NCBI RefSeq assembly: GCF_026151205.1
Contig: NC_087074.1
Span: 16,567,962 to 16,627,961 of the forward strand
DNA from: Bolinopsis microptera
Taxonomy: Eukaryota; Ctenophora; Tentaculata; Lobata; Bolinopsidae
Reading direction: 5' to 3'
Length of the DNA stretch: 60,000 nucleotides
The position numbers were made by a program, and so were the translations under genes. Shown here piece by piece: positions 305-40,027 of the stretch. Under the pieces are notes generated by a model. That model saw only the letters and a list, made by a program, of their open reading frames with translations, was not told the origin of the DNA and ran no database searches. Each line of letters opens with the position of its first letter. Positions within the stretch are counted from its first letter, which is position 1.

Positions 305-1910
305 GGTCCATTTCCAAGCAGCTATATTCTCCATCAGCAGCTGAGTTTCAAACTCAGGACGTTTAGATACCGTCCACTCCCAACAGTTAGCTGCGATCTG
401 TTAATAACAATACGACATAAGCTAAGAATTAAAGTTGAATTGTAACGTTCCTCCCGGTGAATTCGGAGCAACAGAGAAACAAGACTTAGTTAGAAATATA
501 ATGGGAGCATTGAAAAGAGAAAGACGGAATATAAAGGTTACGATTACCATAAATACTGATTAACTTACCCTGACGGACTCCTTAGTGAAGCAGGTTACAG
601 GAACCCAACAGAGCGCTCGGAGTGCCTTCCTGTTTAACTTCTCCTCACATATCAGGAATGCTGCTGTGTGGTTTACAGCCGCCTCGATAGCCTCAATAGA
701 GCCTGTAGGTGAGTGAATCATAATCTAGACTAATATTAAAGAGATATTCTAGATGAAATCAAAGTGCAAAAAGGATTTGAAAATAAGAGTTTTTTTGATT
801 AATAGCCGACTGTTCATGAGATCCAGACTTATGAGCATGGAAGAATTTAGAGCTGAGCTATAAGCTGAATTATAAGATAACATCAACACGCACCAGTTGG
901 ATTCTGTTTCCATTCAGTGAGAGCTTGCTCCATCTTTTTGAGAACCATGCCGACAAAATCAAAATCTGCTCCTTGAAAAGTTACCAAACTCTTCATCCCC
1001 TCAATGTGACCGTAAAACTGAAGAAAGTTATAAGTCAGAAACAGTAAGAGTATTTCTAACAACAAGAAGGAGGAGAATATCGACATTTCGAAGGGGTGGT
1101 CTCTAATCTTGACAATCGACCAGTATATAGAAAATATGAGTTATCAGATAATTTTCGGTCGGGCGAATATCATATGTTCTTCTCCACGCAGCACTCCGGG
1201 ATATGGATGTATAAAATATAGTATGTGCATGGTGCTATATTGAAAATCCACACAAAGGCTTGTCGGTGGCAAAGAGACAACATTTTATATTTACCTTGCT
1301 GCGGTTTGTAGCACTGTTCAGGGAAGCGTTGTAATACAGTTTGTGTTCCATCTTCCTGTCCATCGGAATGTTCATATCCTCTAGTGAGATGTTCAGTCCT
1401 GGAATGTGTGGTCAAGTTAAATGATAGTAGCAGTCCAGGAGAATCTGGGCGATACTTATCTAGCCGTGTAATAGTACAAGTGAAAGTGAAAGTTAATAGT
1501 GAAAGTTAATAGTGAAAGTTAATAGTGAAAGTTAATAGTGAAGGAAAAGTAATACAATATATTGAGATCGGTCCCAGTAGGGGGGTTACCTTTAATAGAG
1601 CTCTTCAACTGATCTTCATAATCTTGTAGTTTCTCCAGCTTTTCAAGCGGCGCAAATTTCACTGACTCCTTCAGAATAGCAGCGAATCTGAAATTATAAC
1701 TTATGTTAAGTTTTGCTTACGTACAACAAAGGAAGGGTAGGGGTTTAGACAATGAAAGAAGAAAAGTTACCGTTTAGAGAAGTCATTGAGCATGTTCTGT
1801 CTCTCTTGGTTTTCCTCCGCAATGTTCATTGTACCCGGCTCGTAAGGTACAGACACCTCCCTAATGATACCTTGCTCTGATGTGGTGTTCTTAACCGCCT
1901 TCACTAGCTC
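305..1910 (-). CDS. PI4KA: PI4KA exons 18-23
   Basis: Exons 1910-1771, 1687-1590, 1398-1295, 1017-894, 702-569 and 397-305. They include VPYEPGTMNIAEENQERQ, RFAAILKESVKFAPL, NASLNSATNRSKFYGHIEGM (human MASLNLRNRYAGEVYGMI) and NCWEWTVSKRPEFETQLLME (human [20 protein letters not shown]). The last exon ends WKWT|GTAAGT. No further exon is visible in 1-304, so the rest of the gene, including the kinase domain, is off the left edge. Confidence 0.92.
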
Positions 1911-37884: not shown

Positions 37885-40027
37885 TCACTCGTTATCTTTA
37901 GCCGCCTCCTCGTGTTCTCTTAGGATGTTATCCCAGGTTACAAACTGCTCAGATAAAGTGTTCAGGATTTCATTCCACTTACCTACTAGTTCGTTAATCT
38001 CCTTGTTAACCGCCTGAATTATTAGTTAATTAGTTAATAGGTAATTAATTAGTTAATTATGCGATTAATTAGAAAATAAGTATGCGATTAATTAGTTAAT
38101 TAGGTAATTAACTAGTTAATTAGGTAATTTATTAGTTAATTAACTAGTTAATTAGGTAATTAATTAGTTAATTAACTAGTTAATTAGTCAATTAATTAGT
38201 TAATTAATTAGTTAATTAAACCTGCAATAACAGGAACATTTGTTATGGAATGTAAATTTAATGCTCACTTTAATCTTAATCTTAATGAGTTCCTCCACAG
38301 TGCATTTTAAGTATGCTCATATTTCATACCAATGGATATATAATTATTCAGCAGTTTAATTAAGTCTGGCGATTATAAGTTACCTCCCCATCGTCATGTA
38401 GTTTCAGACACTTCAGAGTGAGAGGTCCCATCTTCTTCTCGAGTTCGGGCACATTCTTCAAATTCCCAGGATTAACCTCACTCTTAAGATCAGCTATCTG
38501 CTTTGCATCTGATGCTGCTTTCTGGAAAACGAGTGAAAATCAATAAAAAGGTGTGTTTTTTACAGAACATATTTCCCAACATGGAACAAAAACTAATTAT
38601 TTAAAAATTCAAACTTAAATACTGATTATTTGGAAATGCCCGAGTTCATGTGTGAGACTGGAGTAGGTTTGAAAGTGTTACCTGCATGCGGTTGGTACTG
38701 CCAACAACGTACTCTTGCTGAATGAACTTGGAGGGATCATACCGCATGATAAAGCCGGGGTTTGTGTAGGTGGACAGTTCGTTTAGTCTCTTCAGTAGAG
38801 CTTGTGTTTTTGGGTGCTTGCCAAGCATCTTGTCCACCTGACAAGGACGTGTTTGTTACTTGTCTCTATGTAGTACCTAGAGGCTCTTACGGGCAAAAAA
38901 ACGGGGTTTCTGCTATGAGTTTGGAGACCTAACCATTAATTGGACACAATAGTATGATGTGTAAGGATCGAGAATATGTTAAGAAATATAAATATGGCCT
39001 TATAAGTCACGTGCTATAACAATGCGCGTTTTAAACTTTGACAGTCTATAACTCTTACTCTTAGGCCAATAGAGTAATTATATTCATATTTTGTCAGCAA
39101 TAAGATCACACTGTTTTCTATTTGGTGTGAAAATATGAGCTAGAACAGACATCATCTCGCTGAGTTGTAGCTGTTTGAAATTGTTGATGAACGCGCGGGT
39201 GCCCATTGATAACAACTAAATGCTTTTGCGCGTAGTACGCGTCGAAAATTTGGCAAAAACGCTTGCGGAATTACAATATTCAAACTTCGATAAAGTATAT
39301 GAAGTGGGTACTTCTCGGAAAGGAAAAATTGAGGCAAACACGATGTGACTATTTTTGGGTTGATTTAGTACAACTGCAGAAAATGATTCAAACTTTAAGC
39401 AAAAAAGGGCACATTTTCACCACCTTTTTGGATGTTTACCTGGGGAAAAATAGAGGGATTTGTTTAATTTTTATACCATCATGTGCGGCTGTATTTCAGC
39501 TATTTTCATGCAAATTTTGCTGATATGCCAACGAAATTAACTTGCTCAAAAGTTCAAAAAACATGGTTTTTTGGCCTATTTTTGGCCCAAAAATCGGTTT
39601 TTTGCGATTTTACCCGGGGAAAATCAGTCCAATCATCTTGAAACCGCTTTAAATCGATTTTGCGGTCAAAAATACGTCTAGTAAGGTGTATCTGGGGTCC
39701 CTAGCCTATCGAGCAGACAATGCCCGTAAGAGCTTCTACTAATGGTAAAACGACTTGTTACTGCTGTTTCTATGGTTACTGTTGTTTGATGTTGTTGTTT
39801 TTAAGTGCGATTTGGAACTTGGAGTCAAGTTGCAAGAGCAAAGATGATAATATTTCCATCTTGTAAATTTTGACAGGTATCAAAAAATCAATAATAGTAA
39901 CCTTAGTATTGAGCTCCTCTAATATTTTCACAGCTTCTTTCTCCGAAGCATTTTTACCATAGATTCTCTCCAGTTGCTCCACTCTGTCCTCCAACATTGC
40001 TAAGTCTGTTGGTGTAACGCCTACCAT
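37885..40027 (-). CDS. DCTN3: Dynactin subunit 3 (p24)
   Basis: Four exons, 40027-39902, 38837-38682, 38521-38384 and 38013-37885, all joined in phase 0, encode 182 aa (human p24 is 186). DCTN3 belongs to the shoulder of dynactin, the dynein cofactor. The N-terminus LEDRVEQLERIYGKN matches human LQARVEELERWVYG, and the C-terminus LSEQFVTWDNILREHEEAAK matches human LSKQFVQWDELLCQLEAATQ. Most of the chain is predicted coiled coil, as expected. The exon 1 donor is the weak AAG|GTTACT. Intron 1 contains a mariner-type element; intron 3 begins with a TTAATTAG repeat at the exon 4 acceptor. Divergently arranged with the ORF1-like gene at 40751. Confidence 0.93.
38014..38220. repeat. TTAATTAG repeat at DCTN3 exon 4 acceptor
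   Basis: Imperfect TTAGTTAATTAGGTAATTAA words. On the minus strand they give CTAATTAACTAATTA, i.e. many CTAAY branch-point-like words directly before the acceptor (AATTCAG|GCGG). Confidence 0.88.
38880..39736. mobile_element. Mariner-type non-autonomous TIR element in DCTN3 intron 1
   Basis: The 16-base ends GAGGCTCTTACGGGCA and TGCCCGTAAGAGCTTC are inverted with one mismatch, and TA lies directly outside each end, as in Tc1/mariner. Length 857 bp; no transposase ORF (longest frame under 90 codons). The interior has GGGCAAAAAAAC and CCAAAAATCGG/GCGATTTTAC words. Confidence 0.8.

Follow-up and report, generated by a model that had tools for sequence, protein, structure and literature searches.

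This text concerns minisatellites that lie across or beside splice sites in a 60,000-nucleotide (nt) stretch of DNA from the ctenophore Bolinopsis microptera (contig NC_087074.1, positions 16,567,962 to 16,627,961 of the forward strand; the whole stretch is hereafter called the window). PI4KA lies on the minus strand, as follows:

300-34854, minus strand: PI4KA as present in the window, with 23 coding exons drafted

The draft PI4KA protein matches PDB entry 9b9g_A (E 8.4e-114), and GT/AG borders were placed for the 20 introns that enter the statistics below. Genes on the plus strand are nested inside PI4KA introns. DCTN3 is identified by Pfam Dynactin_p22 (E 1.2e-30), and one of two paralogous G-protein-coupled receptor genes (GPCR1 and GPCR2) matches Pfam 7tm_1, the other having no Pfam family at E<=0.01. 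The original prediction called a further gene a lectin; a Pfam search gives no family for it at E<=0.01, so that the name is not confirmed and is kept in quotation marks only. After merging, Tandem Repeats Finder (TRF) reports 38 arrays in the window, 16.7 kb in total, while an Rfam scan and a tRNA scan of the window gave no matches.

TRF places the following arrays across exon-intron boundaries:

34846-37202, minus strand: PI4KA exon 1 acceptor array, 32-bp unit, ~75 copies
33253-34108, minus strand: PI4KA exon 3 donor array, 31-bp unit made of 25 exonic nt and GTGAGT, 28 copies
30383-31610, minus strand: PI4KA exon 8 acceptor array, 32-bp unit CTAACCCCTCCCTCCCCCAG/GTAAGCTGT (slash, splice junction) with 9 exonic nt, 37 copies
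28799-28943, plus strand: GPCR2 exon 2 donor array, 46-52-bp unit, 3 copies
15754-16101, plus strand: "lectin" exon 3 donor array, 46-53-bp unit, ~7 copies
2063-6016, minus strand: PI4KA exon 17 donor array, core TACTCAG/GTACGTGGTGTGTAGTCA, 123 core copies

In all six, which are the boundary arrays named in the original prediction, the TRF array overlaps the exon and the units carry exon bases together with the donor or acceptor, as had been claimed. Donor boundaries (e.g. PI4KA exons 3 and 17) and acceptor boundaries (exons 8 and 1) are both affected. Apart from the exon 3 and exon 8 units described above, the exonic part of a unit measures 7 nt at PI4KA exon 17, 9 nt at exon 1, 11 nt at "lectin" exon 3 and 40 nt at GPCR2 exon 2. 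Where this part can be aligned it is real coding sequence; for example, the start of PI4KA exon 8 (at 30391) aligns with human PI4KA. The final exon base is 34084 at PI4KA exon 3, 6010 at exon 17, 15764 at "lectin" exon 3 (end CCAG/GTTAGG) and 28838 at GPCR2 exon 2 (end CAG/GTATAA). The PI4KA exon 1 unit consists of CTAAC, a run of C and TGTATAG/GAGGCTGCA, closed by the first exon bases; the authentic exon begins at 34854, with an ATG 8 nt past the acceptor. Finally, the exon 17 cores are spaced mainly 25, 32 or 36 apart, and their array fills the 4.1-kb intron 17 almost completely.

GPCR1 and GPCR2, with 64% identity, have the intron after exon 2 in common. In GPCR1 this intron has a single plain donor and no array, whereas in GPCR2 the donor stands in three tandem copies. 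Since the intron is common to both paralogues and the array is found in GPCR2 only, the array is younger than the intron; it arose at a pre-existing junction and was not what created the intron. Introner-like dispersal was also considered and rejected, the one array searched being a single locus: a 248-bp piece of the PI4KA exon 3 array, searched against the genome with very common words skipped, matched that array only.

Other arrays lie in introns, at or close to a splice site (numbering of the added PI4KA exons is our own count):

38017-38219, minus strand: array before DCTN3 exon 4, TTAATTAAC-type, ending 3 nt from the acceptor (exon start 38013)
23732-23770, minus strand: array after PI4KA exon 9, 9-bp, GTAACTATA-like, 16 nt into the intron
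17192-17523, minus strand: array before PI4KA exon 12, TCCTAACACCC-type, ending 4 nt from the acceptor (exon start 17187)
7801-7930, minus strand: array before PI4KA exon 13, 9-bp, TAGTAACCA, ending 13 nt from the acceptor (exon start 7787)
7327-7500, minus strand: array before PI4KA exon 14, TAGTAACACGTGA-type, ending 7 nt from the acceptor (exon start 7319)
6384-6520, minus strand: array after PI4KA exon 16, 21/32-bp, beginning at intron base 1 (donor 6520)

Those before PI4KA exon 12 and DCTN3 exon 4 had been predicted and are recovered here; those near the exon 13 and 14 acceptors and at or near the exon 9 and 16 donors are additional to the original prediction.

The window was found through its arrays, and therefore an independent sample carries the weight of the statistics, namely: myosin-head exons that were located in this genome with Pfam and chosen regardless of arrays. 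In all, 307 of 329 matches (TCP1, SNF2, kinesin, dynein and myosin) gave 188 listed introns; the statistics rest on the myosins. For these, 180 kb were fetched in 20 stretches, and the genome's own myosin II motor was aligned to 11 genes with a spliced aligner written for the purpose. A near-identical second copy on contig C11 was dropped, leaving 10 genes. The sample consists of 68 introns with an exon alignment score of at least 30 on both sides; introns with weaker exons were not counted. TRF finds 121 arrays in the myosin stretches and none in a 164-kb Markov control, so the arrays are not noise, and 63 arrays sit in 28 of the 68 introns. Two of them straddle a junction: one (C2:3.17 Mb) repeats a 40-bp unit, 31 nt of it exonic, in 22 copies without a difference, and the other overlaps its exon by one base. 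The predicted recurrence in unrelated genes is thus seen again in independent genes and is not a peculiarity of PI4KA.

Two observations on the myosin genes may be recorded here. The near-identical pair on C11 (11.96 and 12.11 Mb; L044 and L042/L043) lies on opposite strands, ~0.15 Mb apart. In addition, C3:9154012-9154203 and 9154255-9154485 (L052) align to the same part of the myosin head (positions 105-167 and 102-167), which may reflect a tandem exon duplication.

As a null model, each array was shrunk to one unit and placed randomly in the correspondingly shrunken intron, with exon overlap either permitted or not. It should be noted that this model takes no account of base composition or of the uneven way in which long introns grow, and that the PI4KA exon 1 array stands outside the statistics, its upstream exon not being known. 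Random seeds of this kind account for the straddling arrays: 5 of 33 arrays straddle a junction in the window, against 3.5 expected (p=0.24), 2 of 63 in the myosins, against 3.2 expected, and 7 of 96 in the two sets together, against 6.6 expected (p 0.51). The original prediction held that so many boundary arrays exceed chance and offered, as one of two options, that amplification starts at splice sites. For straddling arrays there is no such excess, and a start at the junction is not needed; what survives is a roughly twofold excess of arrays beside splice sites, which is taken up below.

We consider it probable that the arrays are minisatellites of the ordinary type, residing in short introns and sorted by selection, beyond which a modest bias towards splice sites has yet to be explained. 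Short tandem duplications, which occur about once per kb of intron, would expand and become homogenised through slippage or unequal exchange. Selection would next remove arrays within coding exons, and those that are intronic or straddle a junction would persist, the latter because the exon-side copy still supplies the correct splice site. With introns of a median of ~270 bp, a seed of 20-40 bp would straddle or touch a junction often enough without any targeting. The coding exons examined, 14.6 kb aligned from the myosins and 2.8 kb of internal exons from PI4KA, contain no array lying wholly within them, and the density in non-array myosin intron is 1.09 arrays per kb. Furthermore, none of 189 further splice-motif copies in six straddling arrays is predicted from the sequence to preserve both the frame and the open reading frame (ORF); these include the further donor-motif copies at PI4KA exon 3 (26), PI4KA exon 17 (102) and the myosin array (21). 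Two arrays beyond the 189 give 0 of 2 copies that keep the frame (PI4KA exon 12) and 1 of 1, for a loose 4-base motif (exon 16). Because the distal sites tested break the frame, the exon-proximal site is presumably the one mainly used.

Several results weigh against so simple an account. Arrays at most 20 nt from a splice site number 11 of 33 in the window, compared to 6.1 expected with exon overlap allowed (p 0.008) or 3.5 without (p 9e-5), and 13 of 63 in the myosins, compared to 6.9 (p 0.005) or 4.7 (p 7e-5). Combined, they number 24 of 96 against 13.0 (p 2e-4) or 8.3 (p <1e-5), and, if arrays of three copies or more are taken alone, 14 of 55 against 6.5 (p 5e-4). Donor and acceptor sides contribute alike, with 12 arrays each against 6.5 expected each (p=0.02). 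Shrunken introns no longer than 300 bp show the excess (16 of 22 against 10.1, p 0.007), and longer ones show it more weakly (5 of 19 against 2.2, p=0.06; 3 of 55 against 0.7, p=0.03). In PI4KA, 8 of the 20 introns, a high density, have an array across a splice site or at most 20 nt from one. Pure neutrality does not explain the excess. Narrower myosin sets point in the same direction: where both exons overlap the hidden Markov model matches (38 introns, 40 arrays), a set with less power, 4 arrays lie within this distance where 1.8 or 1.2 would be expected (p 0.09 and 0.02) and none straddles against 0.8 expected, and the excess shrinks when only myosin arrays of at least 60 bp are kept (4 of 24 against 2.2 or 1.3; p 0.12 and 0.02).

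A genome-wide word test bears on the same issue. Words were sought in three tandem copies at a spacing of 6-36 nt, and donor words were compared with dinucleotide-matched words and with reversed controls; matches pile up inside arrays. The donor words give 1212 (AGGTAAGT) and 1016 (AGGTGAGT) matches, far above their reversed controls (11 and 184), and this too counts against an origin blind to splice sites. The dinucleotide-matched words, which themselves contain donor-like GTAGG or GTGAGG, give 548 (AAGTAGGT) and 1391 (AGTGAGGT), with 0 and 206 for their reversed controls. The strong enrichment of donor words that the reversed controls suggest thus does not show in total matches when the dinucleotide-matched words are the standard. 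A further adverse point is that, on C1 up to 25.46 Mb and among the matches listed, donor words form 16 arrays and matched words 8; outside arrays, the two donor words occur 17 times and the two matched words 15 times in 208 kb, so that word frequency does not account for the difference on C1. The word test is compatible with an approximately twofold splice-site bias.

These results can also be taken to indicate a mutational hotspot, in which a process linked to transcription or splicing (R-loops, nicking or template switching) starts duplication at splice-adjacent DNA. This would fit the excess in both sets, short introns included, as well as the preponderance of donor words over reversed controls and over matched-word arrays on C1. 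However, a process started at the junction should peak at straddling arrays, which are not in excess; the matched words are nearly as numerous in total matches; and the C1 array counts are small, coming from one contig among the matches listed. We therefore regard a hotspot of this kind as doubtful. A bolder version, unlikely in our judgement but worth entertaining, is that in this lineage the DNA just inside splice sites is a two- to threefold hotspot for the birth or retention of arrays, that introns would grow outward from their ends by the expansion of boundary repeats of the amphioxus "mirage" type (PI4KA introns 17 and 3), and that some arrays, such as that of exon 8, would be trains of recursive sites that remove themselves step by step. 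In the exon 8 array, CAG/GTAAG occurs 34 times besides the authentic site, most units holding the motif, and the AG/GTAAG sequence makes most of these units possible candidates for ratchet (recursive) splice sites.

At PI4KA exon 1, the array contains no ATG on the sense strand in 2,348 nt, and acceptors further upstream would thus merely lengthen the leader. The exon 1 acceptor could be a trans-splice site, an idea suggested by analogy, since leader trans-splicing is described as common among ctenophores (PMC8527503).

The original prediction had proposed, as its other option, that selection keeps arrays whose units can splice. In its wider form, this explanation says that arrays are retained for redundancy of branch points or splice sites, or for control of splicing through array length. 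The branch-point-like word TAAY is present in 11 of 12 acceptor-near arrays and in 31 of 84 other arrays (Fisher p 4e-4), and in the myosins alone in 6 of 7 and 16 of 56, respectively (p 0.006). In addition, the length of a tandem array in intron 18 of human ABCA7 influences whether the exon that follows is skipped (PMC5954066). The TAAY enrichment is expected from copying of the 3' splice region even without selection, however, since acceptor-side units copy a compact region holding TAAY, pyrimidines and AG: among the 61 myosin introns without an acceptor-near array, TAAY lies 9-40 nt upstream of the exon in 44, and in an equal donor-side stretch in 24, introns of at most 110 bp being scored as none in the latter count. 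Branch-point-like words also form big arrays far from acceptors (8336-9280 and others), and the TCCTAACACCC-type word of the exon 12 acceptor forms a larger array in mid-intron (19539-21748). The alternative sites fare no better, none of the 189 keeping the ORF. Nor do the units show clear selection on the splice dinucleotide, which is altered in 2 of 338 unit cells compared to 72 of 4,058 other cells (sums over five arrays; columns of long homopolymers excluded), none of the five arrays differing individually (p 0.25 or more). An apparent conservation of GT in the exon 17 units (p 7e-16) was discarded as an alignment artefact of mixed 25- and 36-bp units; in the core, the dinucleotide is altered in 3 of 246 cells and other positions in 17 of 1,599. 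The predicted selection for units able to splice thus finds no backing in frame or conservation, and we judge retention by selection quite improbable.

TAGTAAC-like words are common to the PI4KA intron arrays at 7327-7500, 7801-7930, 8168-9280, 23732-23770 and 24100-24149, which occur both near and far from acceptors; these arrays may be one minisatellite family or a case of convergence.

Arrays inflated or misjoined at repeats during assembly are a third alternative. The high uniformity of some units, such as the 22 identical copies of the myosin array, would be expected of such an artefact. However, distinct units with flanks of their own are found in several genes, exon frames are intact on both sides, and the contigs are 16-24 Mb in length. 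We consider it very unlikely that the arrays are artefacts; their copy numbers may be wrong even if the arrays are real. Ordinary minisatellites with a modest splice-site bias remain the explanation that we favour.

Other features of the window were noted by eye, with TRF support where stated. A tRNA-derived insertion resembling a short interspersed element (12114-12481) splits a 22-bp array and has a poly-T end and a GTTCGAA-like box on the opposite strand; ARAGORN finds no tRNA in it. PI4KA intron 12 contains three closely alike larger repeats (9281-9967, 12650-13336 and 13559-14506; by eye and TRF), each terminating in 57-bp arrays. Beyond the genes studied, a 10-bp array of ACTGCTGCTC reported by TRF occupies 50507-51015 (51 copies, 99% matching). 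Near the 5' end of DCTN3, a long inverted repeat lies at 40110-40235 (hairpin/foldback element). Finally, the translation of 48700-50100 on the minus strand suggests a retroelement-like ORF, a submitted piece of which has no Pfam family at E<=0.01.

The original prediction knew of no described system like this one; precedents do exist, and the splice-boundary arrays of the window belong to a kind already described. A limited literature search, weak as evidence of absence, found no report of such arrays from ctenophores in the excerpts covered. In amphioxus, "mirages" are minisatellite-like tandem repeats across intron/exon boundaries of several genes, namely: Adh3, the globins BflGb6 and BflGb9, TnC and PGBD5 (PMC3087553; PMC3902484). 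They affect both intron ends, and regular splicing is thought to be undisturbed (PMC3087553; PMC3902484). The ctenophore arrays resemble them in having boundary-spanning units at 5' and 3' boundaries, in the AG/GT signals carried by many units and in occurring in several genes. They differ in extent, a single array reaching ~120 core copies and PI4KA being affected in 8 of 20 introns, and in their source: the mirages come from another animal, and the arrays described here are known from the sequence of one assembly. The ABCA7 array is a variable number tandem repeat (VNTR) with a 25-bp unit that flanks an exon and whose first bases, GT, form the donor; retention of one unit was measured and shifts the frame (PMC5954066). 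The human CBS VNTR c.1444_1467+7 has a 31-bp unit, by its name 24 coding and 7 intronic positions, in alleles of 16-21 copies (PMC2630376). As in these two VNTRs, the donor is repeated along the arrays of the window and distal copies are predicted to break the frame, and the anatomy of the CBS VNTR is close to that of the PI4KA exon 3 array (25 + 6 nt). However, CBS is a single locus and ABCA7 a single polymorphic human locus tied to disease, whereas several loci are affected here in one animal genome. The model of Rogers, as cited in PMC3087553, has introns gained by tandem duplication of AGGT; here too tandem duplication copies splice signals, but the introns already exist. Taken together, these comparisons show that splice-boundary minisatellites, previously known from isolated cases in amphioxus and humans, occur in another animal genome in numbers that allow counting, and the present analysis supplies a null model by which such arrays can be judged. 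If confirmed on an annotated genome, the residual bias would tie splicing signals to the birth of tandem repeats and to intron growth, for which GPCR1/GPCR2 and the PI4KA arrays are suitable test loci.

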